A stretch of 64,000 nucleotides of DNA from a virus, in IMG/VR virus record IMGVR_UViG_3300011114_000961, positions 1 through 64,000 of that record; one strand, written 5' to 3'. Below are positions 4,659-51,011 of the stretch, piece by piece; the first letter of the stretch is position 1, and each line of letters begins with the position of its first letter. Made by a program: the position numbers and the translations under genes. The notes below the pieces were generated by a model. That model saw nothing but the letters and a program-made list of their open reading frames with translations, searched no databases and had not been told where the DNA came from.

Positions 4659-4686
4659 AAAAACCCTGCCTGGTGCAGGGTTTTTT
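4659..4686 (+). terminator. intrinsic terminator
   Basis: Stem AAAAACCCTGC / GCAGGGTTTTT (11 bp) with loop CTGGT, followed directly by the next promoter whose -35 box starts two bases later. Confidence 0.92.
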
Positions 4687-4687
4687 G

Positions 4688-4716
4688 TTGACCAGTAAAT
4701 CACAATCTGCTATAAT
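4688..4716 (+). promoter_or_regulatory. early-type promoter
   Basis: TTGACC (4688-4693), 17 bases ending TGC, TATAAT (4711-4716). A leader with AAAGGA (4725-4730) follows. Confidence 0.87.
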
Positions 4717-4738
4717 AGCTGTGTAAAGGACTCAATGC

Positions 4739-5191
4739 ATGATCAAGCAACTTTTTACCCGACTAGGACGTTATCGCGTTATTCATGACAGGCTGGACAA
4801 TGAACCTTATTTGGAACGTTACTATGTGTTTCTCAAAGACCGCGAACGTTTTCCGTTCAATGTGTTTGTACACAAGTTCCTCAAGAGTGATCCAGACGAT
4901 GTGCATGATCATCCATGGCCCTTTGCCACACTGATATTGAAAGGTGGTTATTGGGAATGGCGCCCCACATTCGATGCTGAAGGACGCAAAATTGGAGAAG
5001 TCGCACGTTGGTGCGGCGCAGGCAGTTTTCGCACTGCTCAGGCCAATACCTATCACAGGATCGAACTGGATCCCAACATCACCTGTTGGACCTTGTTCAT
5101 GCCCGGACGCAAACAGCGTGATTGGGGATTCCTGGTCAAGAACCAGTGGATCCAATGGGAACAATATTTGAAACAAAGGAAAGCAGTATGA
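4739..5191 (+). CDS. cupin-fold protein
   Basis: 150 residues. The cupin pattern is clear: HDHPWPFATLILKGGY (about 56-71) supplies the first metal-binding His pair and conserved Gly, and the second motif has TYHRIEL followed by WTLFMPG. Similar small cupins occur in phages and in bacterial sugar-modification loci. Possible roles include a dioxygenase or isomerase; no substrate is inferable. It starts an operon with the next gene by an ATGA overlap. Confidence 0.7.
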   Translation: MIKQLFTRLGRYRVIHDRLDNEPYLERYYVFLKDRERFPFNVFVHKFLKSDPDDVHDHPWPFATLILKGGYWEWRPTFDAEGRKIGEVARWCGAGSFRTAQANTYHRIELDPNITCWTLFMPGRKQRDWGFLVKNQWIQWEQYLKQRKAV

Positions 5192-5508
5192 AATGGTTTA
5201 AACGTATGATCGCCCGGTGGGTGCGCGAAGATTGGGACAACGCCAGTATACAACTCAATCTGAAAGAATCAAATGCACTGATCCAATCAACTCGCGGCAC
5301 GGTTCGTGTCAACAGTGACACCATCGACGGCCACTCGGGACTGAACATCACTGTGATGCCAGCTATTGGTGGCAAGATCATCACATTCCGACACTACGAC
5401 CGTCGCAAAGATGATACCCAATACCGGCACTATGTGATTCCAGACGACCTGGACTTTGAACGCGAACTGGGCAAGATGATCACTTTGGAATCCATGCGGC
5501 AGGTATAA
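5188..5508 (+). CDS. hypothetical protein
   Basis: 106 residues from the ATG at 5188, which overlaps the cupin stop (ATGA) and follows AAAGGA; an earlier in-frame ATG is inside the cupin gene and was rejected. The N-terminus is basic (MKWFKRMIARWVRED); the rest is predicted beta-rich, ending in an acidic helix. Not recognised. Confidence 0.7.
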   Translation: MKWFKRMIARWVREDWDNASIQLNLKESNALIQSTRGTVRVNSDTIDGHSGLNITVMPAIGGKIITFRHYDRRKDDTQYRHYVIPDDLDFERELGKMITLESMRQV

Positions 5509-6775: not shown

Positions 6776-7012
6776 ATGTTTGCACGTATGGTTGAAGACT
6801 TGATGAAAGAACCGCAGTCAGAAATTGTAACGATACAACTAAAGGACTATGAAAATTGGCAAAAACAATACACCTGGGACGCATTGCAAAACATACGTTA
6901 CGGGCAGAGTTTCTGTAATCAATACAACATTACAGATTTGAGACTGTACTACTCTCGAGACTGGGTGTTCTGTGATCGATTGATACGCAAAGAATACATC
7001 ACCCGACCCTGA
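6776..7012 (+). CDS. hypothetical protein
   Basis: 78 residues, rich in aromatic and charged residues (YENWQKQYTWDALQ, YYSRDWVF). Preceded by GGAAGG. Its TGA shares one base with the ATG of the next gene. The region resembles neither a known fold nor a membrane protein. Confidence 0.6.
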   Translation: MFARMVEDLMKEPQSEIVTIQLKDYENWQKQYTWDALQNIRYGQSFCNQYNITDLRLYYSRDWVFCDRLIRKEYITRP

Positions 7013-7209
7013 TGCATTCAATCACTTTCAACATGAGTCCACAGCAGGGTCTAGAGCTCAAGACTCAACTGGAGCAGTCGGGACTGATTCAGGGATATGA
7101 TTTCACATGGACATACGTGCCGCCCGATGACATTAACCGTCATCGAACTGTGATATTTCATTTTCGAGATCCTGCACTAGCAACGTTTTATCAATTGAAA
7201 TGGAGTTGA
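7012..7209 (+). CDS. isolated member of the LRW/LKW C-terminal motif family
   Basis: 65 residues ending ATFYQLKWS. The C-terminal block (VIFHFRDPALATFYQLKW) matches the consensus of the tandem family at 16654-18859: a strand, then D-x(3)-A-x-F-x-L-[RK]-W-[ST]. It is some 9.4 kb from that array. The following gene starts three bases after its stop, so here the motif is not overlapped by an ATGA, which argues that the motif is conserved as protein. Function unknown. Confidence 0.7.
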   Translation: MHSITFNMSPQQGLELKTQLEQSGLIQGYDFTWTYVPPDDINRHRTVIFHFRDPALATFYQLKWS

Positions 7210-13170: not shown

Positions 13171-13419
13171 ATGTCCATAGCCAGTTATCGCGCAGTCGAA
13201 CCACTGTACATTATAATTTTGCACAATCAAAAACAAGCAGAATCAGTATTTCGTTCTTGGATACGTGATAACAAAATTGATCACGCACATGCCACAGGCA
13301 ATAGAATGATGTTGCATGAACAACGTGCGTTTGAACAGTTCAAGCTCACATGGAGTCATGACATATCAAACTTGACCATATGGGATACTTGGCTTCGTCG
13401 ACACATATATCTCGACTGA
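13171..13419 (+). CDS. probable diverged LRW-family relative
   Basis: 82 residues. The segment RMMLHEQRAFEQFKLTWSHD resembles the signature of the tandem family (strand, A-x-x-F-x-L-x-W-S), but here the motif is followed by another 20 residues (LTIWDTWLRRHIYLD), so the protein is extended at its C-terminus. It begins directly after the previous stop. Membership is suggestive, not certain. Confidence 0.55.
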   Translation: MSIASYRAVEPLYIIILHNQKQAESVFRSWIRDNKIDHAHATGNRMMLHEQRAFEQFKLTWSHDISNLTIWDTWLRRHIYLD

Positions 13420-13910: not shown

Positions 13911-14477
13911 ATGACCGTGGCTGTTTCATTAAAAGACCCTTCGACGGAAGAGCTATCTGAAAAGCTAAACATCCAGCTGGAAAAAATGCGTGATTTGGCC
14001 AAACAGGCTGTGGACAATCCTGTGCAAATAAGCTCAATCGATTGGGGCGATGCTAATGTTACCATTAGCGGTGGAACCAGCTCAGCAACTGGTGCAGTAT
14101 GGGATACAAATCCAGTAGTTTCTCTAGCAGGCGGCTCAGGCGCTGGTGCTTATTATAGTAACAATACTATTAACACCATTGGTGTAGCTGGCAGCGGCGG
14201 CACATACACAATTGGCGGCGTTTACGGTAACAAACCCAGTACTATAATTTCTGTAGAAGGTAAAGATGCAGACATCAAGATCAATGGCAAGAGCATGACT
14301 GAGTGGATGGAACGGGTAGAAGAGCGATTGAACATACTCACGCCCAACGCCGAGTTAGAAAAAGATTGGGATGACCTACGCCGACTGGGCGAACGATATA
14401 AGAAACTGGAGAAGAAATGCAAAGAGAAAGCCCTGATGTGGGAAACATTGAAAAAAATGCCAAAAGTAAAAGTATGA
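13911..14477 (+). CDS. glycine-rich protein with coiled C-terminus, likely virion-associated
   Basis: 188 residues in three parts: a helical N-terminus (1-45), a Gly/Ser/Thr-rich low-complexity centre (50-115), and a charged C-terminus with KDADIKINGKSMTEWMERVE then EERLNILTPNAELE ending in a Lys-rich coiled coil. That C-terminal motif is one I recognise from uncharacterised tailed-phage proteins. Its last codon overlaps the nadE start (ATGA). Confidence 0.65.
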   Translation: MTVAVSLKDPSTEELSEKLNIQLEKMRDLAKQAVDNPVQISSIDWGDANVTISGGTSSATGAVWDTNPVVSLAGGSGAGAYYSNNTINTIGVAGSGGTYTIGGVYGNKPSTIISVEGKDADIKINGKSMTEWMERVEERLNILTPNAELEKDWDDLRRLGERYKKLEKKCKEKALMWETLKKMPKVKV

Positions 14478-15253
14478 CACCTAAACAACGTGTTACCACT
14501 ATTGTGAAGTGGATCAAAAGTTATGCCCGGAGTGCCAAAATTAACACGTTGGTAGTGGGAGTATCAGGTGGCATTGATTCTGCTGTGGTCAGTACCTTGT
14601 GTGCAATGACTGGACTGGATGTACATGCAGTCAGCATGCCCATACGCCAAAGTAAAAAAACTCATAGTCTCAGTGTTGCTCACGGCGCCTGGCTGGCGGA
14701 ACGATTCCCCAACAACGTGCTACACAAAACAATTGATCTCACCCCGGCCTTCAAACAGTTTGAAAAAGCCACAGAGGACGGTGTGTACAATGAACTGGCC
14801 TATGCCAACAGTCGTGCTAGACTACGCATGATGACCCTGTATCAGATTGCACAAAGCCAGCGGGGTATTGTGGTGGGCACAGGCAATCGAGTGGAAGACT
14901 TTGGTGTGGGCTTCTTTACCAAATACGGCGATGGTGGTGTGGACATCAGCCCCATTGGCGACTGCATGAAAACAGAGGTGTGGGCCATGGGTCGTGAACT
15001 GGGACTGTTGCAGTCAATCATCGATGCACCGCCCACAGATGGATTGTGGGAGGATGGTCGCACCGATGAGGATCAACTGGGCATGACCTATCCTGAACTG
15101 GAACAGGCCATGCTTCAAGACACCGGTTTTTTTCTCCCCCATATCACTCCTCAAGAGAAAAAAAATCTTCGTCGCTACCGTGAGATTCGCGCAACAAATT
15201 TGCACAAGATGTTGCCAATACCGGTTTGCAAATTCGACCAGTCTGTGTTATAA
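14474..15253 (+). CDS. nadE: NH3-dependent NAD+ synthetase NadE
   Basis: 259 residues. The N-type ATP-pyrophosphatase loop GVSGGIDSA lies at about residues 28-36, and the deamido-NAD/ammonia region GNRVEDFGVGFFTKYGDGGV, then DISPIGD, is well conserved. NadE converts nicotinate adenine dinucleotide to NAD+ in the last step of NAD synthesis. No glutaminase domain is fused, so ammonia is the likely nitrogen donor. The start at 14474 overlaps the preceding stop (ATGA); a longer in-frame reading lies inside that gene. Two nucleotidyltransferase-like genes elsewhere in the window may belong to the same nucleotide economy. Confidence 0.92.
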   Translation: MTPKQRVTTIVKWIKSYARSAKINTLVVGVSGGIDSAVVSTLCAMTGLDVHAVSMPIRQSKKTHSLSVAHGAWLAERFPNNVLHKTIDLTPAFKQFEKATEDGVYNELAYANSRARLRMMTLYQIAQSQRGIVVGTGNRVEDFGVGFFTKYGDGGVDISPIGDCMKTEVWAMGRELGLLQSIIDAPPTDGLWEDGRTDEDQLGMTYPELEQAMLQDTGFFLPHITPQEKKNLRRYREIRATNLHKMLPIPVCKFDQSVL

Positions 15254-16209: not shown

Positions 16210-16238
16210 TTGACCGGTAATTTGAGCTGTGCTATAAT
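16210..16238 (+). promoter_or_regulatory. early-type promoter of the LRW array
   Basis: TTGACC (16210-16215), 17 bases ending TGC, TATAAT (16233-16238). It is the only recognisable promoter between here and 19305, so it probably drives the following basic protein and the nine tandem paralogues as one operon. Confidence 0.87.
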
Positions 16239-16264: not shown

Positions 16265-16657
16265 ATGACCATGCACATGTGCGGCCCTGCGCTGAGCCTC
16301 AATGGCAAGAAGAAGGGTAAATTCAAATACCGTAATGCTGCTGAAGCTCGCAAGGCTCGTGAACTCGAAGCTGACTGGAAACAACTGCTGAAACGTCAAG
16401 GTGTGGCTGCAGAAGAAAAGAAGCGTCGTCGTGCTCTAGCAGCAGAACCCTTGGTTTACAATTTGACTGGTGCCACAGATCGTGCAGGTACTGCTCACAT
16501 TCCCAGTCTTGGCACCGGCGGTGGTGTGGCAGCGTTGGCACCTGCCAAAGTGTATACAGGCACCAAGGTCAAAGGCATTGCTACCATGCACAAGAGCAAT
16601 GCTGTGCCTGTGTTCAGCGACGAAGAAGCAATTGACATATCCAAGATGCGGCGATGA
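16265..16657 (+). CDS. conserved basic phage protein
   Basis: 130 residues, strongly basic. The start MHMCGPALSLNGKKKGKFKYR and the end MHKSNAVPVFSDEEA with DISKMRR match a family I recognise from tailed phages, function unknown. CAGGAG ribosome site. A nucleic-acid- or ribosome-binding role is possible given the charge. First gene of the operon that contains the LRW array, joined by ATGA. Confidence 0.75.
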   Translation: MTMHMCGPALSLNGKKKGKFKYRNAAEARKARELEADWKQLLKRQGVAAEEKKRRRALAAEPLVYNLTGATDRAGTAHIPSLGTGGGVAALAPAKVYTGTKVKGIATMHKSNAVPVFSDEEAIDISKMRR

Positions 16658-16950
16658 GTAACGCTATATTGACTCCACAACAGATAACCAAAATGGCAAC
16701 ACAATGGATAGATGAAATCAACGTGAAACGCCTTGAAACTGGCTATGCTGAAAATCAACCTAAATGGCCCTATTGGATTCGACCATCAAACTACACTGAG
16801 GCAGAGTGGTGGGGCATGGACCAGTGGGTAATAGATACAATGGGAGAGTCTGATTGGTCAGTAGAACACGCTCGTTGGGTTGGCAGTAATTACAAGTATT
16901 GGTTCCGTGATGAACGGGACCGCACTTTGTTTTTGTTGAAGTGGTCATGA
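16654..16950 (+). CDS. LRW tandem family, member 1
   Basis: 98 residues, ending RTLFLLKWS. It has a longer N-terminal helix (ILTPQQITKMATQWIDEIN) than its siblings, a tryptophan-rich centre (WPYWIRP, AEWWGMDQWVIDTMGE) and the shared C-terminal block (YKYWFRDERDRTLFLLKW). The stop overlaps the next ATG, and the LKWS codons supply AAGTGG just before it. No homologous family of known function is recognised. Confidence 0.75.
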   Translation: MSNAILTPQQITKMATQWIDEINVKRLETGYAENQPKWPYWIRPSNYTEAEWWGMDQWVIDTMGESDWSVEHARWVGSNYKYWFRDERDRTLFLLKWS

Positions 16951-17177
16951 CTTTGCCCAAGATTATACATCGTCCCGAGTTAGATAGATGGGATGTGCAT
17001 TTTAGCCTTACTACTCCGGGCAGTAATATAAAACAAGTGCATGAATGGTGCTGGGATACTTTTGGACCCAATGGATTTATTACACATACGCATGACCGTC
17101 ATTGGGATTATCTCGGTGGCTGGTTATACTTGTATAAAGAAAAGTATGTTACATTGTTTTTGTTGAGGTGGTCATGA
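16947..17177 (+). CDS. LRW tandem family, member 2
   Basis: 76 residues from ATG 16947. The shared helix is VHEWCWDTFGPNG (about 34-46), then a His/Trp-rich loop (HTHDRHWDYLGGW) and the terminal block KEKYVTLFLLRWS. A GTG two codons upstream is in frame but inside the preceding motif; the ATGA overlap with AAGTGG upstream favours 16947. Confidence 0.75.
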   Translation: MTLPKIIHRPELDRWDVHFSLTTPGSNIKQVHEWCWDTFGPNGFITHTHDRHWDYLGGWLYLYKEKYVTLFLLRWS

Positions 17178-17368
17178 CCCTGATTGTTGACTACGGTATC
17201 AAACGAGTCAAGATGCCCTACAAAATTGTCCAAGGCAATAAGTGGCTTGAGGCAGATCGCTGGTGTACTAAGACTTTTAAATTTGGTGAACACCAAAGAG
17301 CCAACGGCTATTTTTACTTTAAAAAGCAAAAGCACCTGATGTTGTTCTTGCTGAAGTGGGGCGCATGA
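17174..17368 (+). CDS. LRW tandem family, member 3
   Basis: 64 residues, the shortest member. Helix WLEADRWCTKTFKFGEHQ, strand GYFYFKKQKH, end LMLFLLKWGA: the final Ser/Thr is replaced by Gly-Ala. The three-base longer tail moves the next ATG but keeps the ATGA overlap. Confidence 0.75.
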   Translation: MTLIVDYGIKRVKMPYKIVQGNKWLEADRWCTKTFKFGEHQRANGYFYFKKQKHLMLFLLKWGA

Positions 17369-17607
17369 ATAGCAAACAGCGTAGAAAAGAAAAACGTGAT
17401 ATTGACAAGAATTATCACAAGGTACATCTTACAGTACGCCCGGGAATGGATTGGACTGATTGGTGTGATCAAGTTGCGGAAATGGTTAGGTGGGTTAGTG
17501 AACATACTAGGCGTGATTGTTGTTTGCAAAAAAATGAGTGGGCCGGTAGTACATTCTATTTCTCGGACGCAAAAGATGCCACACATTTTACATTGAGATG
17601 GTCATGA
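17365..17607 (+). CDS. LRW tandem family, member 4
   Basis: 80 residues with a unique basic N-terminus (MNSKQRRKEKRD). Helix DWTDWCDQVAEMVRWV, two adjacent cysteines (RRDCCLQ), then STFYFSDAKDATHFTLRWS. The middle position of the motif is Thr rather than Leu. Confidence 0.75.
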   Translation: MNSKQRRKEKRDIDKNYHKVHLTVRPGMDWTDWCDQVAEMVRWVSEHTRRDCCLQKNEWAGSTFYFSDAKDATHFTLRWS

Positions 17608-17804
17608 CAAAAGTAGAGAAAACATCATATCCAGGTTGGAACAATCATCCAGTTTACCGTTGTATGAAAACAGAAGATTGGCACGAAATTACTAGTTGGA
17701 TGTATAAAAATGATTGCAATCCTTTTCTATTGAGTTCAGGCAGCACAGGCTATGTGTTTCAAGTTAGAAAGAACCACGATTGGTTTCTGTTGAGGTGGTC
17801 ATGA
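17604..17804 (+). CDS. LRW tandem family, member 5
   Basis: 66 residues. The helix is degenerate (DWHEITSWMYKNDC) but keeps Trp and Cys; the end is GYVFQVRKNHDWFLLRWS, lacking the usual Ala before the aromatic. Confidence 0.72.
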   Translation: MTKVEKTSYPGWNNHPVYRCMKTEDWHEITSWMYKNDCNPFLLSSGSTGYVFQVRKNHDWFLLRWS

Positions 17805-18016
17805 AATACCCGCAGCCAGAATGGCATATAGTCAGTGTGCCGGTACCCAATGATCCCAAAATCGCTTCAAATTATAAAGGATGGAGTCCCTGTATAGATT
17901 GGTGCTTTGAACAATTCGGTGGCCAGTCTGAGGATGGGTGGAGGTATCTTGGCGAAGGTGTGGTCGAGTTCCGCGATGAAAAACATGCTGCATGGTTCTT
18001 GTTGAGGTGGCTATGA
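17801..18016 (+). CDS. LRW tandem family, member 6
   Basis: 71 residues. Helix CIDWCFEQFGGQ, strand GVVEFRDEKH, end AAWFLLRWL. Best match to the derived consensus except that the final residue is Leu (CTA) because a single base change alters the last codon while keeping CTATGA as the start overlap. Confidence 0.75.
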   Translation: MKYPQPEWHIVSVPVPNDPKIASNYKGWSPCIDWCFEQFGGQSEDGWRYLGEGVVEFRDEKHAAWFLLRWL

Positions 18017-18264
18017 TGGATATAGAACACAAATATCTTAATAAACTAACTAAAGATTTAGCTGATAGTATTGATACCGAAATACTATACAATGCTATGG
18101 GTTGGACTATTGTTAAAATACCAGATCCATGGTACATTCCTAGTGTGTCTAGTAATGTGAAAGATTGGTTAAAAGAAACTAAAATTGAATGTCATTGTTG
18201 GGACAGCAAGATTGCTTTCAAAGAAGGTAGTGATGCTACATTCTTTTTATTGAGGTGGACATGA
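18013..18264 (+). CDS. LRW tandem family, member 7
   Basis: 83 residues (82 if the second ATG is used). Extra N-terminal helix (YLNKLTKDLADSIDTE), then VKDWLKETKIECHCWD and KIAFKEGSDATFFLLRWT. AT-richer than its neighbours, which hints at a separate origin or faster drift. Confidence 0.72.
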   Translation: MMDIEHKYLNKLTKDLADSIDTEILYNAMGWTIVKIPDPWYIPSVSSNVKDWLKETKIECHCWDSKIAFKEGSDATFFLLRWT

Positions 18265-18506
18265 GAGTAGAATTTCGTCAAGGTGTGCCCGAAGGGTGTA
18301 CCGAATGGTTAAACAAACATGTGGGCAAAGGCAATATGACTGGCCTTGTTGACAATTACGATTATGCCTGGTTCTACAAGCGTGAGCGTGTTTATCCACA
18401 GCCACACGAAGCGTTTGACCCTCGTGACTTGGGACCAAAATATGTGCCCACTATCACAGTTAAAGATCCTAAGTTGGCAACATGGTTTATATTGAGGTGG
18501 ACATGA
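18261..18506 (+). CDS. LRW tandem family, member 8
   Basis: 81 residues. Helix CTEWLNKHVGKGNMTG, a proline-rich loop (VYPQPHEAFDPRDLGP), strand PTITVKDPKL and end ATWFILRWT. Confidence 0.75.
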   Translation: MRVEFRQGVPEGCTEWLNKHVGKGNMTGLVDNYDYAWFYKRERVYPQPHEAFDPRDLGPKYVPTITVKDPKLATWFILRWT

Positions 18507-18859
18507 GCAAGAGTGAGATTAAAGGTCTTTTCTTCTTTAGACAAAACTATTGGATGCCCTGCGGATTGAATATCAAAGAACATCTCTGGTGGCGATTTAT
18601 GCCCGGAGTTGTAATCAATGTAGCATGGCCCAGGGGGTGGGTAGATATAGATTGGATGCCAGACGGTAGTAAAACATCTGTCGATAGCAGTGACCCAAAC
18701 GATCACTATCGCCCATGGTTAGAAGAACATGTCGGTCGTCAAAAATGGGATTGGGATTGGGGCATGGCTGATCGTGATGCTACTGACAATCGTCTAACCA
18801 TAAAGATTAGTCAAAAGTATGCCAAGTATGCTACAATAGCAGCATTGAGATGGACATGA
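18503..18859 (+). CDS. LRW tandem family, member 9 (longest)
   Basis: 118 residues. An added N-terminal region with several Trp (NIKEHLWWRFMPG, WPRGWVDIDWMPDG) precedes the common part: RPWLEEHVGRQKWDWDWG, RLTIKISQKYAKYATIAALRWT. Here the aromatic before LRW is replaced by Ala. Last member; its stop overlaps an in-frame ATG (18856) of the next gene. Confidence 0.72.
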   Translation: MSKSEIKGLFFFRQNYWMPCGLNIKEHLWWRFMPGVVINVAWPRGWVDIDWMPDGSKTSVDSSDPNDHYRPWLEEHVGRQKWDWDWGMADRDATDNRLTIKISQKYAKYATIAALRWT

Positions 18860-19305: not shown

Positions 19306-19311
19306 TTGCAT

Positions 19312-19530
19312 ATGGCCAAAGAAGAAACTCTCAAAATGGAGGGAACAGTTGAAGACATTTTACCTGCTGCGATGTTCCGCGTCAAAATAGACAATGTTGA
19401 GCATACAGTGCTGGGACATCTCAGTGGGCGAATGCGTACCAACAATATCAAAGTGCTGCTGGGAGATCGGGTAGAAGTGGAATTCACACCATACGATCTC
19501 ACTAGAGGGCGTATTGTTAGAAGAAAATAA
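19312..19530 (+). CDS. infA: translation initiation factor IF-1
   Basis: 72 residues, exactly the length of E. coli IF-1, beginning [13 protein letters not shown] and ending [14 protein letters not shown]. Between them lie PAAMFRV, the Gly-x-Leu-Ser-Gly-Arg-Met-Arg core and GDRVEVE: all the landmark segments of the OB-fold IF-1. IF-1 binds the ribosomal A site with IF-2 and IF-3. The start at 19312 removes two extra codons of an in-frame TTG. No ribosome site is obvious. A phage copy could bias initiation; see findings. Confidence 0.95.
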
Positions 19531-19533
19531 ATA
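19527..19533 (+). promoter_or_regulatory. late promoter core (ATAAATA)
   Basis: ATAAATA at the infA stop, ending 5 bases before the superoxide dismutase ATG. This spacing predicts a leaderless late transcript. Confidence 0.6.
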
Positions 19534-19538
19534 CCTGT

Positions 19539-20081
19539 ATGCGTGAACACATAGACTTACTGGAAGCCAGCACCAGACCGGCCAAACTAGAAACTACTCC
19601 ACTACCTTATGGTCCCAAGGACCTGGCACCGGTGATGAGTGCTGCCACAATTGATTACCATTTTGAACATCTCGCCAAGGGCTATGCCAAGCGATACAAT
19701 GCAGGAGAAGGCAATGCAGATTTTAATCGTGCTGGCAGTTTTTTACACAATAAGTTTTTCCCTCAGCTTAGGGCTCCCAAAGGTGCCAATCGACCACGTG
19801 GTGCAGTACTCGCACTCATAGAAGAACATTTTAAAACCTACGAAGATTTCAAAATAGCATTCAAAGAAACTGCTATGAAAATACAAGGCTCTGGATGGGT
19901 GTATCTCAGCACCAGCGGAGCAATCAAGACCATCGCCAATCATGCCGTACGCACCGACATCTGTGTGCTAGTAGACTGGTGGGAACATGCCTGGGCCCTG
20001 GATTATCAAAGCGACAAAGAAGCATATCTCAACAATATCTGGAAGATCATTGATTGGGATGTGTGCAACGAAAGACTATAA
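19539..20081 (+). CDS. Fe/Mn superoxide dismutase
   Basis: 180 residues. Metal ligands of the Fe/Mn SOD family can be placed: His in [13 protein letters not shown], His in [12 protein letters not shown], and Asp and His in [14 protein letters not shown]. The fold's N-terminal [14 protein letters not shown] and GSGWVYL segments are also present. The usual HH-x-KHH is reduced to YHFEHL, and the second-helix region is shortened relative to about 195-residue bacterial enzymes. It would dismutate superoxide in the infected cell. Late promoter directly upstream; TAATG overlap with the Fe-S carrier. Confidence 0.9.
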
Positions 20082-20401
20082 TGAATCTCAAACCTGCTGC
20101 TGTGAGCAAACTGCGTGAGCTGATCGCAGAAGAAGCCAACCCTGCGCTCATGCTGCGTGTGTTTGTGCAAGGCGGCGGTTGTTCAGGATTCAGTTATGGA
20201 TTCACGTTTGATGAAATTCAAAACGAAGATGATTTTGATTTCAACTACGAAGAAGTGCGAGTGGTAGTAGATGCCATGAGCATGCAATATCTACAAGAAT
20301 CAGACATTGATTACAAAGAAGATGCCATGGGTGCCAGCTTTGTGATAAAAAATCCCAATGCAGTCAGCACCTGCGGCTGCGGCAGTAGTTTTTCAGTTTA
20401 G
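20081..20401 (+). CDS. A-type iron-sulfur carrier (IscA/ErpA/HesB family)
   Basis: 106 residues. The three cluster-binding cysteines are in [11 protein letters not shown] and the C-terminal CGCGSSF, separated by about 64 residues as usual for the family. A-type carriers deliver Fe-S clusters to target enzymes. The radical SAM protein at 36448 is one possible client in this window. It starts on the last base of the SOD stop and its stop overlaps the convergent fibre gene's stop. Confidence 0.92.
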
Positions 20402-21864
20402 TCGCCGCCACCACCGCCAAAGCCGCCACCAGCGACGCCGCTGCTGCCTTCTCCCCTGCCTGGTCCACCACCTCCACTTGGTTGCGGTGGTGGAGAGTAA
20501 ACGTATGGACTGGACCGCGGAACCATACCCCAATCTCCGCTGATAGTTTCAAAATTAGTAGTTTGTTGGCCGGACACCTGGGTCCAGGCCCCATTTTGTT
20601 TGATATAAATTGCATTTGTGATTTTCCAAGTGCCTTGATCATTCACATAAACTTCCTTGGTAGCATAATAGGTACCAGCTTGATTTACAAACACCCCAGG
20701 AACATTCATGTATATCACTGCATATCCATTGCCCCCACGTTCGCCGTTTGATCGCCCACCTTGTCCAACTCCAGCTGGTACTGAGATTCCTGACTGTCCG
20801 CCGGGTGTTCGACCACTGGGATTAAATCCATTTGGATAGGCAAAACTCCAGCTGGCGCCAGGGTTTCCTGCTTGTCCACCAGTATCGCTAGCACCCGGCC
20901 ACCCGCCATATGCTCCACCATTGCCACCTCCGCCAGTGCTGCCATTGTATCCTCCGCCACCACCTCCGCCAGCGCCGCCGTCACCTGGATGACCTGCTCC
21001 TGATTCACCATTGAACCCTGTGGTAGTTTGGCCGTTGGGCCCAGGACTGCTGCCACCTGGGCTAGGATTACCTGCCCCGCCGCCGCCACCGCCGCCGGCA
21101 GCCACGCCCTGCAATAGCCCATTTTGTAATAAAACAGTTGCCCCGCCGCCACCACCACCACTACCGCTAGCACCTCGTGATCCTGAATTGCCGCCCGGAG
21201 CACCTGAAAAACTAGCCCCACTGTTGATCGATACAGCCACTCCAGCGGGTCCTCCACCGGAGTTATAACCTACAATACGTAAAGTATGAGAACCGCTGGT
21301 TATTGTAATATTGTTAATTCTTGAACCGTTATAACTTCCGCTGGAAGATGCCACAGCAATCCCATCTATGTATACTGTGCCATCGTCATCAAATGCTGTC
21401 TGCAAAACAAATACACCAGTGAATGGCACAGAAATAGTGGTAGAGACATCAAGCGTGTAAGCACCATTGGCATTCCATACAGCATAGGCGTTCATGAAAT
21501 TGCTCCAGGCGTAAGGTAAACTCACTGCAATCAATCCATTTGTTCCAGCCAATTGTCTTGTGTTGAATACGCTATACCCAACATAGCTAGATCCTCCTGA
21601 TCCTCCACTTACTCCGCCGCCGCTGAGCCCGCCACCACCGCCGCTGCCCACTGCCAGTGTAATAACATCAGCAGTGTTGCAAGCAATTGTGGCAATCGAA
21701 AACCCGCCACCACCTCCTGCGCCTCCGGGGCCAGAATCGTTCCCGCCGCCACCACCACCACCGCCCCAGAGATGTGCAGTAAGTTGAGCGTCAGGAATCA
21801 ACGGATATACCGTGAGTGTTTGTAATGAATTTGTATACCCTACCGGTCTAGATATTATTGGCAT
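20398..21864 (-). CDS. glycine-rich tail-fibre adhesin
   Basis: 488 residues. N-terminal WGGGGGGGG tract, then a beta-sandwich-like region (about 100-210) with [20 protein letters not shown] resembling PA14-like sugar-binding folds, a long polyglycine region (about 215-350) made of GGGGG loops as in adhesins of T-even phages, two repeats of the type [10 protein letters not shown] (about 380-410), and a Pro/Gly-rich tail. Such adhesins sit at fibre tips and decide host range. It follows the 860-residue fibre gene by 12 bases on the same strand. Confidence 0.82.
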
Positions 21865-21876
21865 TATAGATTTGTA

Positions 21877-24459
21877 TTATACTTGATACCAGATATCACC
21901 ATCGCTGCCGCCTGTGGGTATTGCACTACTAATAGTTCGATTACCGTACCCATTAGAACTGCTTGCTATGGTCAACGTTACGTTGGTACTCAACGCACCT
22001 CCGCCACTGAGTCCAGTACCGGCAATAACCCGAGTAGTAATTCCCACAGCATTGAGATTTACCAAAGCATTGGCATAATCACCAGAACCAGTACCCCCGG
22101 CTGTTACAGCCAATGGAGTAATACCTGTGATGGTTCCGCCAGTGATCACTATATTGGATGTTATTAAATTAGCTTGCACCGTCGAATTGGTCATATTGAT
22201 GTTGGTCATTGACCCGCCACTGATTGATACTGCGCTAGAATCTTGCGTGGCTATGCTGCCCATGCCCAAATTTAATCTGGCCACAGATGCGATATTGGAG
22301 CCAGTTCCTCCAGACAACACCGGCAATGGAGTTATCCCACTGATGATGCCGCCGGTGATGGCAACTGCATTGGCATTTTGTGTGGCAATAGTGCCCAGTC
22401 CGAGATTTGTTCGAGCACTGGCTGCATTGCTGGCTCCGGTTCCTCCAGACAACACTGGCAATGCAGTTATCCCGCTGATACTGCCACCAGTGATGGCAAC
22501 TGCGCTGGCATTTTGTGTGGCAATAGTGCCCAGGCCAAGATTTGTTCGAGCACCAGCTGCATCACTGGCTCCAGTTCCTCCATCGGCCACAGCCAGGTCT
22601 GAGATGTTGTAGATTGACCCACCTGAAATATTTACAGCAGTAGAATTTTGTGTAGAGATGGTGCCCAGGCCCAATCCTGTGCGACCCCCGGCTTGCGACG
22701 ACCCGCCAGTGCCGCCATATTCAACTGATAATGGTGTGATACCAGTTATGGTACCACCAGTGATGGCAACTGCATTGGCATTCTGCTGGCTCATTGTGGG
22801 CAGGGCATTGGTCCAGTTAGTAACAAATCTTGTGGTAGCTATCTGCGTATTACTGACAGTGATGTCAGGTGTGGGTGCCGCTGGTGTTCCAGTAAATACT
22901 GGACTGACCTTTTGTGCCTGCACAAACTCAGTGGTGGCTATTTGTGTACTGCTATCATTAGATGCAGCAGTAGGCGACTGTGGTGTTCCAGTAAATACCG
23001 GACTGACCTTTTGTGCCTGCACAAACTCAGTGGTGGCCATTTTATTATCAGCGGCTGTGTACCCAGGTGTTGGACCTGTGGGCGATACAGCAAAAGCTGG
23101 GCCATTGGTCACAAATGCTGTGGTAGCCAATTGAGTGGTTGCTGTTCCTGCTGCTGCTGTGGGCGCAGTGGGTATGCCAGCAAAAGCTGGACTATTGGTC
23201 ACAAATGCTGTGGTAGCCAATTGAGTGGTTGCTGTTCCTGCTGCTGCTGTGGGCGCAGTGGCAGAAATTATGCCACCGGTGATAGAAACATCACCAGCAC
23301 TCTGTGTGGCGATGCTGCCCAGTCCGAGATTTGTTCGAGCACCAGCTGCATCACTGGCTCCAGTTCCTCCATCAACTACGGCCAGATCTGAAATATTGTA
23401 AATTACTCCGCCCGAAATAGCCACATTATTGGCGTCTTGTGTAGAGATAGTGCCCAGGCCCAACCCTGCAAAAGCAGCGCCTTGAGTTGATCCACCGGTG
23501 CCGCCGTATTCAACTGCTAATGGTGTGATACCAGTTATGGTGCCACCGGTGATGGCAACTGCACTGGCATTTTGCTGGCTCATGGTGGGCATGGCGTTGG
23601 TCCAGTTGGTAACAAACTGTGTGGTAGCTATCTGCGTATTACTGACAGTGATATCAGGTGTGGGTGCTGCCGGTACTCCAGTGAATACTGGACTGATCTT
23701 TTGTGCCTGTACAAATGCTGTGGTGGCCAATTGAGTGGTACTGGTAGACGATGTGGCAGTGGGTGCTGCCGGTACTCCAGTGAATACTGGACTGATCTTT
23801 TGTGCCTGTACAAATGCTGTGGTGGCCATTCGATCATCATCTGTCAAACTGGTCAATGTTGGGCCTGTGGGCGATACAGCAAAAGCTGGGCCATTGGTCA
23901 CAAATGCTGTGGTAGCAATTTGTGTAGAATTGGTTCCTGATGCTGCTGTGGGCGCTGTGGGCGTGCCAGCAAACATGGGACTGTTGGTCACAAATGCCGT
24001 GGTAGCCAATTGAGTGGTCGCTGTTCCTGTGCCAGCAGTGGGTGCAGTGGGCGTGCCGGCAAAAGCTGGACTGTTGGTCACAAATGCCGTGGTAGCCAAT
24101 TGAGTGGTTGCTGTTCCTGTGCCAGCAGTGGGTGCAGTGGGCGTGCCTGTGAATACAGGGCTGATTTTTTGTGCTTCTACATACGCAATGCTGGCAAGAT
24201 CAACAAACACATTGGCACTGTTATAAACTGATAGTATATCTTCAGAATTGTTGTACCATAGCTGACCAGTTATAGGCTGAGTAGGCGGAACGATATTGCA
24301 GAAATTTTCCAGCAAATACACATAATTTTCGTTTTCATAAACACCATATTCTATAACAGCCCGCCCTACCAAGGCAAGATCTGTAGCGGTGGTGTTTACT
24401 GTTCCGTCGGGTATGAATGCTATTTGGTCGCCACGGCTGTTATTGATGATATAACTCAT
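21877..24459 (-). CDS. long tail-fibre protein with PTAPTA/TTQLATTAFV repeats
   Basis: 860 residues. After an N-terminal domain (1-90) come many copies of a unit near 30 residues with SPVFTGTPTAPTA and TTQLATTAFV, interleaved with units of the form AVAITGGTITGITPL and GGTGASDAAGARTNLGLG. These repeats are typical of trimeric phage fibre shafts in marine and freshwater myophages. The C-terminus ends in GGSDGDIWYQV, a collar-like end. Repeats at DNA level (such as 23090-23250) are nearly identical and could recombine. Late promoter upstream and GGAG site. Confidence 0.88.
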   Translation of the reverse strand: MSYIINNSRGDQIAFIPDGTVNTTATDLALVGRAVIEYGVYENENYVYLLENFCNIVPPTQPITGQLWYNNSEDILSVYNSANVFVDLASIAYVEAQKISPVFTGTPTAPTAGTGTATTQLATTAFVTNSPAFAGTPTAPTAGTGTATTQLATTAFVTNSPMFAGTPTAPTAASGTNSTQIATTAFVTNGPAFAVSPTGPTLTSLTDDDRMATTAFVQAQKISPVFTGVPAAPTATSSTSTTQLATTAFVQAQKISPVFTGVPAAPTPDITVSNTQIATTQFVTNWTNAMPTMSQQNASAVAITGGTITGITPLAVEYGGTGGSTQGAAFAGLGLGTISTQDANNVAISGGVIYNISDLAVVDGGTGASDAAGARTNLGLGSIATQSAGDVSITGGIISATAPTAAAGTATTQLATTAFVTNSPAFAGIPTAPTAAAGTATTQLATTAFVTNGPAFAVSPTGPTPGYTAADNKMATTEFVQAQKVSPVFTGTPQSPTAASNDSSTQIATTEFVQAQKVSPVFTGTPAAPTPDITVSNTQIATTRFVTNWTNALPTMSQQNANAVAITGGTITGITPLSVEYGGTGGSSQAGGRTGLGLGTISTQNSTAVNISGGSIYNISDLAVADGGTGASDAAGARTNLGLGTIATQNASAVAITGGSISGITALPVLSGGTGASNAASARTNLGLGTIATQNANAVAITGGIISGITPLPVLSGGTGSNIASVARLNLGMGSIATQDSSAVSISGGSMTNINMTNSTVQANLITSNIVITGGTITGITPLAVTAGGTGSGDYANALVNLNAVGITTRVIAGTGLSGGGALSTNVTLTIASSSNGYGNRTISSAIPTGGSDGDIWYQV

Positions 24460-24478
24460 TTAATACTCCAATTTTATG

Positions 24479-24485
24479 TATTTAG
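24479..24485 (-). promoter_or_regulatory. late promoter core (CTAAATA, minus)
   Basis: The complement of 24479-24485 reads CTAAATA, 19 bases before the minus-strand fibre start. Divergent with the late promoter at 24523. Confidence 0.6.
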
Positions 24486-24522
24486 CATGTAGACACTTGT
24501 ACGGGCAAGCAAAATTTTTTGG

Positions 24523-24528
24523 TAAATA
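24523..24528 (+). promoter_or_regulatory. late promoter core (TAAATA) after A/T tract
   Basis: TAAATA preceded by AAAATTTTTTGG. The same A/T tract and core occur before the TctC gene (43150-43166). The start codon is 21 bases downstream. Confidence 0.6.
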
Positions 24529-24549
24529 CTACACTAGGACACTCTATCT

Positions 24550-26733
24550 ATGACTCAGCAATACATTGACACTGGTAATACCGCCAATGACGGCACCGGT
24601 ACCCCTTTGCGTGACGCTTTTGATATCTGCAACAGTAATTTTACTGAGTTGTACGGTATTGGCGGCGTAACTGGTATTCAAAACGGCAATTCAAACGTAC
24701 AAGTAATTACCAACAGTACTGTAAACATCAGCAGCAGAGGAGTTGCCAATGTGTTTGTGGTGTCTGGAACCGGCGCCACATTAACTGGATTATTCACCGG
24801 CAGCAGTATTATCAGTGCAGTTGGGAATGTTGTAACCAGCGGAAAATTCATAGGCGATGGCAGCGCATTAACTGGAGTTGTATCCAGTCCAGCAGCCAGT
24901 TTGATCACAGGCAGTACATTGAGTTCGAATGTGACTACCAGCAGTTTGACCACAGTGGGTACTCTGGGCAGTTTGACTGTGACCGCCAATGTGCAAGGCG
25001 GTAATTTGCGAACAGCCGGGCAAATCACATCAACAGGCAATGTCACTGGAGGTAATTTAATTGCAACCAGCGCATTGATTGCCACTGGCAATGCATCTGG
25101 CGGTAATTTGCAAACAGCTGGACAAGTTTCAGCCACCGGTAATATTACCAGTGCTGCCAATGTCACAGCAGCGTATTTTGTAGGGAATGGCAGCGCATTA
25201 ACTGGAGTGAGTGCTACCACCTCTGCTGCTTTATTAACTGGCGCTACTTTGAGTTCAAATGTGACTACCAGCAGTTTGACCAGTGTGGGGACACTAAATT
25301 CTCTTGCAGTAAGCAATGCGTTAGGCGGAACAGGAAATGTCACTGCCAACAATGTCAATGCCACCATTGCTGTGTCGGCTACTGGAAATATTCAAGGTGG
25401 CAATTTAATAACGCTAGGAGTGATATCTGGCGCAAGTGCTGTTCTTACTGGTGATGTTTCGGGTGCCAATGTCACTGCCAATCTCACAGGCGGCAATGTT
25501 GCTGGCAACAATGTCAATGCCACAACATTGGTAACAGGTGCAAGACTCAGTGCCACAGGCAACATCACCGGCGGCAATTTACTCACTGCTGGATTGATCA
25601 GCGCCACGGGCAACATTGCTGGCGGCAATTTAACTGGAACAATTGTTACGGCAGCACAACCCAATATTACCTCAGTAGGTACATTGAGCAGTTTGACAGT
25701 CACTGCCAATGTTACTGGCGGCAACGTACTCACTGCCGGCGTGATATCTGCTGCCGGCAACATCACTGGCGGCAATATCACTATCGGTAATGTAACCAGT
25801 GGCAATGTTATTAACACTGGACTGGTACAAGCTGCAATTTTATCAGCCAGTGGTAATACTACAGGTGGCAACTTGATCACACCAGGCGTAATTTCGGCTG
25901 TGGCCAACATCACTGGCGGTAATTTAGTCACAGGTGGTGCATTATCAGTTTCAACCACCATCAGCGCCGGGGGCAACATCACAGGTGGTGGTAATCTCAG
26001 CATAACTGGTAATATCATTTCCAGCGGTACAAGTACTGCAACCAGTTACAGCACCACAGGCAACATCACAGGTGGCAATGTATTAGGCGGAGCCAATGTC
26101 AACGCTACCACTCACACAGGTACCACTGTGTCAGTAACTGGCAACATCACTGGTGGCAATGTGCTGGGCGGAGCCAATGTCAACGCTACCACTCACACAG
26201 GTACCACTGTGAGTGTGACAGGCAACATCACAGGTGGCAATGTATTAGGTGGAGCCAATGTCAATGCTACCACTCACACAGGTACCACTGTGAGTGTAAG
26301 TGCTAACGTAACAGGTGGCAACATCTTGACAGGTGGATTAATCTCAGCCGCTGGCAACATCACAGGTGGTAATCTTATTGTTGCTGGAATTTCAGGAGCA
26401 CTAACCACAGCATCACAGACCAATATTACCGCAGTTGGTACATTGGGGACATTGAGTGTTACCGGCAACATCACAGGTGGCAATGTGTTGGGCGGAGTCA
26501 ATGTAAATGCAACTTCATTGACAGGTACTACAGTTAGTATAACAGGTAATGTAATCAGCAATAACATTCAAGCCAGTAATAGTATAACCGCACTAAATGC
26601 CACAGTGTCAACTCAACTGGTGATACCGTTTTTCTCATCTGATCCAATCAGTGCAGAATCGGGTAGTTTATATTACAGTACTGCACTGGGTGTACTAAGA
26701 TTTTACAATGGCGTTGCCTGGGTAACTGTTTAA
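24550..26733 (+). CDS. tail-fibre protein with TGNITGGN repeats
   Basis: 727 residues. The N-terminus QYIDTGNTANDGTGTPLRDA with FTELYG is a common attachment domain of myophage fibre proteins. Residues 75-680 are repeats built on [ST]-x-TGN-[IV]-TGGN-[LV], suggesting a beta-helical or trimeric shaft. The C-terminus has FSSDPISAESGSLYYST and LRFYNGVAWVTV, the typical trimer-end motif. Three near-identical 81-base units lie at 26056-26298. Late promoter upstream. Confidence 0.88.
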   Translation: MTQQYIDTGNTANDGTGTPLRDAFDICNSNFTELYGIGGVTGIQNGNSNVQVITNSTVNISSRGVANVFVVSGTGATLTGLFTGSSIISAVGNVVTSGKFIGDGSALTGVVSSPAASLITGSTLSSNVTTSSLTTVGTLGSLTVTANVQGGNLRTAGQITSTGNVTGGNLIATSALIATGNASGGNLQTAGQVSATGNITSAANVTAAYFVGNGSALTGVSATTSAALLTGATLSSNVTTSSLTSVGTLNSLAVSNALGGTGNVTANNVNATIAVSATGNIQGGNLITLGVISGASAVLTGDVSGANVTANLTGGNVAGNNVNATTLVTGARLSATGNITGGNLLTAGLISATGNIAGGNLTGTIVTAAQPNITSVGTLSSLTVTANVTGGNVLTAGVISAAGNITGGNITIGNVTSGNVINTGLVQAAILSASGNTTGGNLITPGVISAVANITGGNLVTGGALSVSTTISAGGNITGGGNLSITGNIISSGTSTATSYSTTGNITGGNVLGGANVNATTHTGTTVSVTGNITGGNVLGGANVNATTHTGTTVSVTGNITGGNVLGGANVNATTHTGTTVSVSANVTGGNILTGGLISAAGNITGGNLIVAGISGALTTASQTNITAVGTLGTLSVTGNITGGNVLGGVNVNATSLTGTTVSITGNVISNNIQASNSITALNATVSTQLVIPFFSSDPISAESGSLYYSTALGVLRFYNGVAWVTV
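26056..26298 (+). repeat. three tandem 81-base repeats in fibre gene
   Basis: Each unit encodes 27 residues with TGNITGGNVLGGANVNATTH and TGTTVSV. The copies differ at a few silent sites. Copy number could change by slippage and alter fibre length. Confidence 0.85.
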
Positions 26734-26737
26734 TATT

Positions 26738-29700
26738 ATGGCACAACCAGTTTGGATTTCTGAAGCAGGTCTTTTGGGAGTTATTCCCGAAGGAGTATTT
26801 TATCAGTCTACTTTGGTTGCAGCCACTGATGCATTGCCATTGAACGTCACATGCACTGCCACAGATGCAGTGACCAATACCATAACTTGCAACAGTACCG
26901 AAGGACTGTATCAAGATATCAATGTGATGTTTGAAGGTGCAGTATTCGGCGGTTTAGATCCTTATGTAAGATATTTTGTGTTGGATGTGATCAGCAGCAC
27001 AAAATTTAGAATTACCACAACAGAATTTAGCAATGTTCCATTACAATTGACCACAGCAACAGGAGTCATGACTCCGGTGTTTAGGCAACATGTTTATTTT
27101 GCTCTCATAGCCGGAAATTTGCCGTTGGGTATTCAATGTGCAGACAATGGGTTGATTGTTGGAGTACCACAGGCTGTGGCCAGTTTGCAAGGTGTGCCAT
27201 TTCAGGTCAACAGAGATGTGGTCAGCAAATTTGCCATTCGAGCATATACCAAACTTGCCAACGGTTCAACTGATCGTATAAAAGATCGAACATTTGAATT
27301 GGTAGTCACTGGCAACAATGTACCTGATTTTATTACACCACCTGGATCCATTGGTACATTTTATGACAGCGATCGTGTGGAGTTTCAGTTTGAAATTTTA
27401 GGGACTGACCCTGGCGATACCAACATAGTCACGTTGGTATCGGGTGAATTGCCCGGTGGACTTTCTATCTCGCCCTTGGGGCTATTGTCAGGCTATATTG
27501 CACCCAGTGTCAATGTTGATAAACCGCCAGGATATGATCTCACACCAGATTTCACTGTGCCATACGATTTTATATTCAGTGCTATCAACAAAAATTTTGA
27601 ATTTACATTGCAGGTGTCTGACGGCAAGAGCCAGAGCCAACGTACTTTTTACATGTATGTGTATGATCGAGCCAGTCTCACTGGCGATGACACTATATTT
27701 ACAGCTGATACTACCAGTATTACCAGTGATGAAACGCCATATCGCCGACCTTTCTTGATCAATACGTTACCTAGCGATCTTGGCAAGGTTCGAAGTGACA
27801 ACTATTATGCTCATCAATTCAGGGCCAATGATTATGACACTAGTGATTTAACTTATACCATAGCTGTAAATCAAGGATCAGGATTTGCACCTGGACTGGG
27901 ATTGGATCCAACATCTGGATGGTACTATGGTTATATTCCCAATCAAGGTGTTACAGAAGTAACATACAGTTTTAATATCTATGCTCGGCAAACTGACACA
28001 ATAGGAACGGCCATCACTTGTACTGCTACCACAGCAGGTACCAATGTGATAACTTGTACAAGCCCTACACAACTAGGTCCAGGCACAGCTATTGTATTTT
28101 CAGGTACGGTATTTGGTGGCGTGAGTTCTTCTTCAACCACAATGTATTTTGTAAACACAGTGGTCAGCGTCAATGAATTTATCACTGAATTTACAGTGAC
28201 CGCAAACATGATGCTCAATCCCAACTATCCAGGAGAGCTACCAGTTTACATACCTGATGGCAACCCTGTGATTTTGACAACAGCATCGGGCTCAATGACT
28301 GCCAGCCTGGTGGTGCCCAGTGATCCATATCCGTTTACCATCACAGTAGTGGGCGAAGTTGATACTGAAGTTACCTGGAATACACCTGCTGATTTGGGCG
28401 TGATTGAAAATGGATCTACCAGTATACTCAAAATTGAAGCGGTCAATCGCGGTGGTAGAGAATTATCTTACAGGTTGAAAAGTGGAGCCTATAATTTGTT
28501 ACCGCAAGGACTTGAACTACTTCCCTCTGGAGACATAGTAGGCAGAACCACTTTTAATACATTTGCTATAGATTTAGGAAATACTACATTTGATAAAAAT
28601 CAGGCATCTTTACTAAACACCTCCATTGGCGAAACTGTGTTTGATACCAAATTTACCTTTACTGTCAATGCCTATGCTGTGGACACAGGTCAACCCACAT
28701 ATGACGTGGTGGGGGTCACAGTGGCCGACGGCGGATCTGGATACAGCAATGTAAACCCACCTGTATTGCAATTTAACTCACCAATTGGTGCTACGGCACA
28801 ACCGGCTGTGGCTGGTGTTGTGACACTGGATGGTGGCGTGATTACTGCGGTAGCAATAGATGATTTCGGGGCTGGATACACCGAACCAGCTACGTTGACA
28901 ATAACAGCTGGTTACGGTGGATCTGGTGCTGTGTTAACTCCGGTCATGCGGTTGACTGGAGCAGTGGATGTGGTCAGTGTGTTCAAAACATTCACAGTCA
29001 CAGTAAATAGAGTATACAACAAACCTTATCAAAATCTCAGTGTGCAGGCCATGCCACCGTTGAATGACCGAGTATTGATAGACAGTTTACTAAGCAACGA
29101 CACTATTTTTGTTCCTGATTACATTTACAGGCCCGATGATCCAAATTTTGGCAAGAGCCGTCGAGTGATTTATCAACATGCATTTGGCCTGGCGCCAGAC
29201 TCTTTGGATACCTATGTCGGCAGCTTGTACGAAAATCACTATTGGAAAAATTTAGTACTGGGCGAAATTGCAACTGCACAGGCAACTGATGAACTTGGCA
29301 ACGTAATATACGAAGTGGTCTATTCACGCATAATTGACGATCTTACCAATGCAGCCGGACAAAGTGTAAGCAAGATTGTGGCGTTGCCTTATGCAATTAC
29401 AGATCCTGCAGATGGCAGCAGTCAAATCAATGTGGTCTACCCCAACAGTTTGCAAAACATGCGAGATCAAGTGATTGATGTGGTAGGACAAATTTCCAAT
29501 AAATTGCCATTATGGATGACCAGCAAACAAGCCAATGGTCGAGTGTTGGGATTTACGCCAGCTTGGGTAATATGCTATACACAGCCCAATCGTTCTAAAC
29601 AAATTGCCTATTACATACAAACACAATTTGGAGTGCAACTGAATCAAGTAGATTTCAAAGTAGATCGATACGTACTTGATTCTACCTTGAGTAAAAACTG

Positions 29701-50939: not shown

Positions 50940-50953
50940 TACTACCAGAATGA

Positions 50954-50982
50954 TTGCGTCAATTCAAGTTAAGTAGTATAAT
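50954..50982 (+). promoter_or_regulatory. sigma70-like promoter (TTGCGT/TATAAT) of clpA
   Basis: TTGCGT (50954-50959), 17 bases, TATAAT (50977-50982). AAGGA precedes the clpA ATG at 51012. Confidence 0.72.
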
Positions 50983-51011
50983 ACAAACTGTTATCCACAC
51001 AAGGACCATTA

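Follow-up and report, generated by a model that had tools for sequence, protein, structure and literature searches.

Why would a phage carry nine small genes in a row whose products share one C-terminal core and have otherwise diversified? This question is raised by an array at positions 16654-18859 of a 64,000-base window, the whole stretch of DNA analyzed here, which comprises bases 1-64000 of the 125,970-base IMG/VR record IMGVR_UViG_3300011114_000961, from a freshwater virus of bacteria. It is well supported that the array forms an operon whose cassettes are interchangeable and share one C-terminal domain. Cassettes are gained and lost at coding junctions, and subtypes of the domain exchange N-terminal modules with one another. 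In at least 10 other contigs, T4-type core proteins are represented by short conserved segments in the N-termini of related arrays. Based on comparisons of sequence and predicted structure, the preferred reading, with a probability of roughly 0.4, is that such arrays are a recombining library of mimic/decoy or target-binding proteins, with counter-defence as the most likely purpose.

The nine cassettes are consecutive open reading frames (ORFs) on the + strand, joined head to tail by ATGA overlaps. The start of the first overlaps the stop of a preceding anchor gene, and the ninth overlaps the closing gene that follows it. The features of the locus, and a solitary member of the same family, are as follows.

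16265..16657, + strand: anchor gene, a conserved phage protein of 130 residues with 267 relatives in IMG/VR
16654..16950, + strand: cassette 1, 98 residues, C-terminus FLLKWS; its orthologues are cassette 1 of loci L011, L012 and L013
16930..16951, + strand: example of the junction repeat, TTTTTGTTGAAGTGGTCATGAC, combining C-terminal codons, Shine-Dalgarno sequence, stop/start overlap and breakpoint
16947..17177, + strand: cassette 2, 76 residues, C-terminus FLLRWS; missing from L011
17174..17368, + strand: cassette 3, 64 residues, C-terminus FLLKWGA; its L011 counterpart is 94% identical
17365..17607, + strand: cassette 4, 80 residues, N-terminus MNSKQRRK, C-terminus FTLRWS; matched by the family model, with a counterpart in L011
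17604..17804, + strand: cassette 5, 66 residues, C-terminus FLLRWS; matched by the C-terminal model
17801..18016, + strand: cassette 6, 71 residues, C-terminus FLLRWL; matched by the C-terminal model, and modelled with AlphaFold2
18013..18264, + strand: cassette 7, 83 residues, C-terminus FLLRWT; matched by the C-terminal model; its N-terminal part probably retains a remnant of the spine helix of gp23
18037..18114, + strand: gp23-helix-like segment of cassette 7, found with a model built from the family only
18261..18506, + strand: cassette 8, 81 residues, C-terminus FILRWT; the same subtype occurs again in L103 and L189
18503..18859, + strand: cassette 9, 118 residues, C-terminus AALRWT; its orthologue is cassette 7 of L013, with 59% identity
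18856..19305, + strand: closing gene with a WYL_2 domain (PF10902, E = 9.6e-10), conserved
7012..7209, + strand: tenth, solitary family member, 65 residues, C-terminus YQLKWS; matched by the family model, with the next start codon outside its stop

An earlier note on this DNA, made from the letters alone, had proposed that the nine genes belong to one family, diversified except for a C-terminal core, and this proposal is borne out. Common to the members are, in order, an upstream helix containing a Trp, a short strand of the form F-x-F, the pattern D-x-x-D-A-x-x-F and, at the end, L-[RK]-W; the upstream Trp column is at least 90% conserved. A hidden Markov model (HMM) of the C-terminal 24 residues recovered eight of the nine cassettes, together with 7012-7209, at E values from 1e-10 to 1e-5. 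Cassette 9 fell outside this list and reached E = 3e-18 when scored against a full-length profile built with cassette 9 among its members. The note had described the L-[RK]-W block as the literal C-terminus, which is correct for eight cassettes, all ending in L-[RK]-W-x, and wrong for cassette 3, which ends in L-K-W-G-A. It had also suggested two members outside the array. The recovery of 7012-7209 agrees with this suggestion, while 13171-13419 was not recovered, its motif being internal and followed by about 20 more residues. As anticipated, the C-terminal HMM recovers the family from phage metagenomes: in 80 contigs sharing the anchor gene and 120 contigs containing the exact 15-mer TTGAGGTGGTCATGA, it detected 517 distinct members in IMG/VR phage contigs, with at most 17 per locus. 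Members of at least 40 residues form 350 clusters, and one phage of 364 kb, G007, carries two arrays. The longest departure in size is a 260-residue member with a long N-terminal part (L210, + strand, 4681-5463), which far exceeds the others. Weak matches of 7012-7209 to Brevundimonas proteins were rejected because the domain is absent from them. The cultured jumbo phage vB_BpoS-Papperlapapp of Brevundimonas (L261, 122191-128271) has many small hypothetical genes in a long, tightly coupled row; the layout is similar, but the genes are not of this family.

The expectation that no characterized family would fit has also held. Pfam, PHROGs and NCBIfam give no family for the constant domain, and the Pfam and NCBIfam matches of members are either weak or located on N-terminal core-protein pieces only. 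The domain is predicted to fold as strand-helix-strand-strand-helix, ending in L-[RK]-W. In the AlphaFold2 model of cassette 6, with a predicted local distance difference test score (pLDDT) of 77.9, the strands occupy residues 9-12, 47-51 and 54-57 and the helices residues 30-39 and 60-70. In a chimera, the same domain was modelled with pLDDT 92-96, and the gp23 piece attached to it was a poorly ordered helical appendage. A structural search of the PDB with two models gave no match at E <= 0.001. The same predicted fold and size are found in uncharacterized proteins of uncultured Caudovirales (A0A6J7WFP6, A0A6J5LU01, A0A6J5LU99 and others in BFVD), for which no function, family name or array context is described; the best Foldseek match had E = 1.5e-4, a template modelling (TM) score of 0.71 and 43% identity, and several had a probability of 1.00. 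Searches of 50,697 cultured phage records with tblastn found no match for three subtypes lacking a gp23 piece, and none for a chimera carrying a P-loop.

What joins the cassettes is a junction repeat of 22-24 nucleotides, some version of which ends every cassette. The DNA there approximates TTxNTxTTGAGGTGGTCATGA and encodes Leu-Arg-Trp-Ser-stop, while GAGGTGG is a Shine-Dalgarno sequence and ATGA contains the next start. The pattern TTYNTNYTNARRTGGDSATGA matches five times in the window and not once in 100 dinucleotide shuffles. Since the last codons of one cassette contain both the start and the ribosome-binding site of its successor, any cassette joined at the junction of about 22 nucleotides would be in frame, complete and translated. 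The translational role is visible in the codons. At overlapping junctions the Arg of the motif is encoded by AGG or AGA in 27 of 27 cases, compared with 88 of 323 Arg codons (27%) elsewhere in the same genes; this count was limited to loci fetched through the anchor gene, and thus not chosen for the motif, because the exact 15-mer scan biases codon counts. AGG or AGA is always present at these positions because the same bases form the Shine-Dalgarno sequence of the next gene, and the choice of Arg codon in the motif is therefore set by translation.

This codon bias would also be expected if L-[RK]-W were a mere translational signal, Shine-Dalgarno plus ATGA, at the ends of otherwise unrelated proteins. 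As a complete explanation this was rejected and is very improbable, although it is right as a partial one. Conservation reaches about 13 residues upstream of the Shine-Dalgarno sequence and includes a Trp further upstream. The motif is also kept in members without an overlapping next gene, sometimes with CGN Arg codons (L073, 3803-3931; L085, 2529-2705), and no further ATGA overlap detected in the window ends in L-[RK]-W. In addition, the predicted structure is common to other phage proteins. The amino acid motif is thus not explained by the translation signal alone. The earlier note had treated the C-terminal core as a feature of the protein, and this needs amendment: the domain is conserved, but the DNA of the motif serves also as the Shine-Dalgarno sequence of the next gene.

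The same junctions are the points at which arrays differ between relatives, and the expectation that copy number would vary between related phages was confirmed. Between the same two flanking genes, relatives carry 0, 1, 3, 6, 7, 8 or 9 copies, in counts per locus that combine the HMM and the motif. The distance from anchor to closing gene is 27 bp, an empty site, in L017, L019, L022, L024 and L025. L018 has one member within 260 bp, L011 three within 723 bp, L012 six within 1488 bp, L015 six within 1392 bp, L013 seven within 1877 bp, the window nine within 2202 bp and L030 about eight within 3601 bp. In L011, with an anchor protein 98% identical to that of the window, only cassettes 1, 3 and 4 are present, and its alignment with the window consists of three homology blocks that overlap by 24 and 22 nucleotides inside the junction repeat. 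Across 97 locus pairs, which are not independent, the ends of homology blocks lie within 30 nucleotides of a junction in 62% of cases versus 19% for random positions, a comparison in which the conserved junction itself lengthens alignments slightly. Exchange is not confined to whole cassettes. Cassette 3 of L012 and cassette 4 of L013 have the same domain subtype and different N-termini, with a P-loop piece in L013 only. The earlier idea of diversification by repeated duplication therefore accounts for the divergent paralogues and has to be supplemented by whole-cassette exchange at junctions and by swaps of N-terminal modules.

Arrays of exchangeable single-gene cassettes at a short repeated site are also known from integrons. 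The integron site is attC, whereas the site here is coding sequence plus a Shine-Dalgarno sequence, and the 4-nucleotide ATGA overlaps leave no space for attC. An integron was rejected because the 126-kb record has no match to the tyrosine integrase family PF00589. A diversity-generating retroelement was likewise rejected for want of a PF00078 match in the same record, which is possibly incomplete. In T-even phages, segmental amplification of anti-defence loci is reported to change copy number as a way to evade immunity (PMC13096335). The two systems are alike in the copy-number change of accessory loci and differ in that a homing endonuclease promotes the copying of segments in T-even phages, whereas the cassettes here are distinct and chimeric (PMC13096335).

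The nature of some N-termini becomes apparent in other phages. In the contigs mentioned above, the pieces come from three regions of the capsid protein gp23, probably from the P-loop of the gp41 helicase and probably from the cysteine motif of NrdA. T4 gp23 (PF07068, phrog_138) is homologous to the N-terminal modules at these three regions; it is a whole capsid protein, whereas the family members hold short pieces fused to an unrelated domain. Module A corresponds to the gp23 arm (for example IIGVQPMTGPVDEIF in L109 and IIGVQPMTGPTGQIH in L205) and aligns to residues 94-132 of T4 gp23. It matched 422 cultured-phage records, with a best E value of 3e-8, and those listed were gp23 or major head genes where annotated. 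Module B corresponds to the E-loop/spine-helix region (EAKSRKLSAKWTIE...EIDxxIL), and the third piece to the FYAPYIP region (FYxPYIP). The names arm, E-loop and spine helix are those of the HK97 fold. The Pfam family Gp23 (PF07068) matches small array ORFs of 113-157 residues in 12 contigs, down to E = 7.7e-17, and several of these ORFs score above its cut-off of 24.4 bits. They cover about 15-95 of the 376 model positions and are not full-length capsid proteins, and complete gp23 genes lie elsewhere in those contigs that are long enough to hold them. In the window, no ORF exceeds the PF07068 cut-off, and its 126-kb record contains no full-length gp23.

The gp41/DnaB-like helicase and NrdA occur in the N-termini as isolated motifs. 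Module C is a P-loop, GG..xGE(L/M)xxxAGRQTGKS, for which the best parent is a gp41-type helicase; this gp41/DnaB-like parent (phrog_19) is favoured over a terminase (phrog_2, 0.005 for L091). The NrdA segment (phrog_84), SNLC(Q/K)EIxLP, for instance SNLCKEILLP, stands beside module C or a gp23 piece in the same protein. When N-termini were compared with the 256 large ORFs of G007, 12 hits were obtained at E < 1e-3, namely 11 to gp23 and one to a helicase, and shuffled N-termini gave no hits against the same ORFs. By similarity, several N-termini in other phages are clearly recognizable as gp23 segments, and gp41 and NrdA are less firmly indicated as sources. Recent copying from the phage's own gp23 was rejected because the pieces are no closer to it than to the gp23 of other phages. 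The same modules occur on different domain subtypes, such as FSRAKWY... and VDGxTWYTV...FDIHEKLY...LRWS.

Within the window, cassette 7 probably retains a remnant of module B. An HMM of degenerate helices, built from family members only and containing neither gp23 nor window sequences, ranked the segment LNKLTKDLADSIDTEILYNAMGWTIV of cassette 7 first among 1177 window ORFs (E = 0.0065; next 1.4). The same model ranked gp23 first among the 256 large ORFs of G007 (E = 5e-4; next 0.89). Some further N-terminal sequences recur. Members of 130-160 residues in L091, L097, L104, L114, L131, L159, L174, L177 and L240 (G007) share the longer module HGC..W..Y...YDPD.N.RA..V.DYYHGYPYVY. The start MNSKQRRK or MNSHQRR is found in window gene 17365-17607 and in L011, L012, L015 and L205, in the last of which it directly precedes the gp23 piece, and the start MTGFxSKKAMS is found in L173, L203 and L240.

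Module A appears to overlap the EF-Tu-binding Gol region of gp23. Its retained core is P..IA....GVQPM, where positions invariant in gp23 are conserved in 82 of 96 cells, as against 15 of 57 at positions of equal invariance immediately downstream. None of the window proteins contains module A. Described as the best-conserved stretch of gp23, Gol interacts with EF-Tu and licenses cleavage by the Lit protease (PMC3014915). CapRel (PMC9712102) and, reportedly, a TIR system (PMC11312562) sense capsid proteins as well.

Taken as counter-defence, the array would operate as follows. The C-terminal domain would act as a scaffold, and the N-terminal parts, as baits or mimics, would each tie up a host factor that otherwise senses or uses the phage protein. 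For the gp23 parts, the suspected factors would be EF-Tu with Lit-like proteases, and other capsid sensors. The phage would thereby possess a stock of replaceable decoys or inhibitors whose diversity is kept by selection for counter-defence, and the cassette end, being domain code, ribosome-binding site and recombination junction at once, would let new decoys be swapped in against changing host sensors. An anti-defence role for the array remains plausible. A more specific form, in which aquatic T4-type phages possess a library of chimeric decoys that join a constant display domain to conserved peptides of capsid, helicase and ribonucleotide reductase, and to other baits, can be put forward only tentatively.

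Several points weigh against a library of mimics and decoys. Only other phages offer certain cases of core-protein pieces; of the nine N-termini in the window, eight have no detectable source, and the single remnant, in cassette 7, is weak. The matches to gp41 and NrdA are short and weak as well, with best E values of 2.5e-4 and 0.04. Homology detects conserved segments only, so the prominence of signature motifs is partly a detection bias. A free Gol peptide activates Lit, so a chimera mimicking Gol must bind without licensing cleavage. In one gp23-chimera pair, the rate of nonsynonymous substitution (dN) in the N-terminal part slightly exceeds the synonymous rate (dS), on very few changes. 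Finally, the count of residues kept in the core of module A is affected by an HMM that chooses core-retaining sequences.

Other explanations have to be weighed against the same observations. The junction, which restores frame and ensures translation, might simply let recombination add and lose cassettes and stray coding fragments, with selection acting mainly on the domain or on nothing. Such non-adaptive gene birth accords with junctions that double as Shine-Dalgarno sequence and breakpoint and with the commonness of empty sites, and the apparent choice of parents may be an effect of detection since only conserved parents are recognizable. It seems doubtful, however, in view of the recurrence of the same gp23 segments in many contigs and on several domain subtypes, the retention of the gp23 core while adjacent invariant residues decay, and the lack of core-protein hits among shuffles. 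Moreover, in those of the window/L011 pairs and the P-loop chimera pair for which dS is large enough to judge, dN is lower than dS, which indicates purifying selection in these pairs.

The N-terminal pieces might instead be address labels that take the C-terminal domain to EF-Tu, the capsid, the replisome or ribonucleotide reductase, either for modulating the phage's own processes or for packaging like the T4 internal proteins. The modules do match regions that make protein contacts, and the contrast between an ordered C-terminal domain and a poorly ordered gp23 appendage would suit such docking. A housekeeping role nevertheless predicts neither empty sites nor gain and loss between phages with a 98% identical flanking protein, and this explanation is considered unlikely. 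Interference with competitors appears similarly improbable. Here, fragments of gp23, helicase and NrdA would be dominant-negative subunits that poison related phages infecting the same cell, at capsid assembly or at replication. Some of the parents are multimeric proteins, the gp23 pieces match the N-terminal arm and the E-loop/spine-helix region, and the fragments are as similar to the gp23 of other phages as to their own. Pieces of about 20-60 residues would, however, also meet the phage's own proteins, there is no sign of the own gp23 diverging to avoid them, and most cassettes lack a detectable core-protein piece.

In the literature, of which few subscription papers were covered, neither the family nor the triple-use junction was found described, nor were chimeras with core-protein pieces in arrays of this kind, and within the same coverage nothing matched under capsid-fragment decoys, tandem arrays or dominant-negative capsid fragments. 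If the preferred reading of mimics and decoys is correct, exchangeable small protein mimics answer the sensing of conserved viral proteins by the host and constitute a new layer of counter-defence, and the mimics would point to the parts of phage proteins that are recognized by bacteria. Whatever the function, the analysis describes a large uncharacterized family of aquatic phages, a cassette junction with three uses and the repeated capture of pieces of core genes, all of which bear on how phages make new genes.

The surroundings of the array may be described briefly. The DNA of the anchor gene matches gene 114 of Delftia phage PhiW-14, and a Pfam search with its protein gave no match. Upstream of it lies the following candidate.

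16210..16238, + strand: sigma-70-like promoter candidate (TTGACC-17-TATAAT, extended -10), matching 11 of 12 consensus positions

Promoter-like matches are no commoner in this region than in shuffles, and the candidate is a consensus match only. Anchor gene, array and closing gene probably form one operon transcribed from it. Directly 3' of the array, at 19306-20401, Pfam identifies genes for the translation initiation factor IF-1, a superoxide dismutase of the Fe/Mn type and a protein of Fe-S cluster assembly. Further host-like genes at 106-699, 14417-15253, 38237-38974 and 50154-53273 encode a ClpP-like protease, NAD synthase, a PhoH-like ATPase and DnaJ-like and ClpB-type chaperones, with Pfam support covering the NAD synthase and the ClpB-type ATPase only. 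The large glycine-rich or repeat-rich ORFs at 20398-30643 are probably tail fibre or adhesin proteins.

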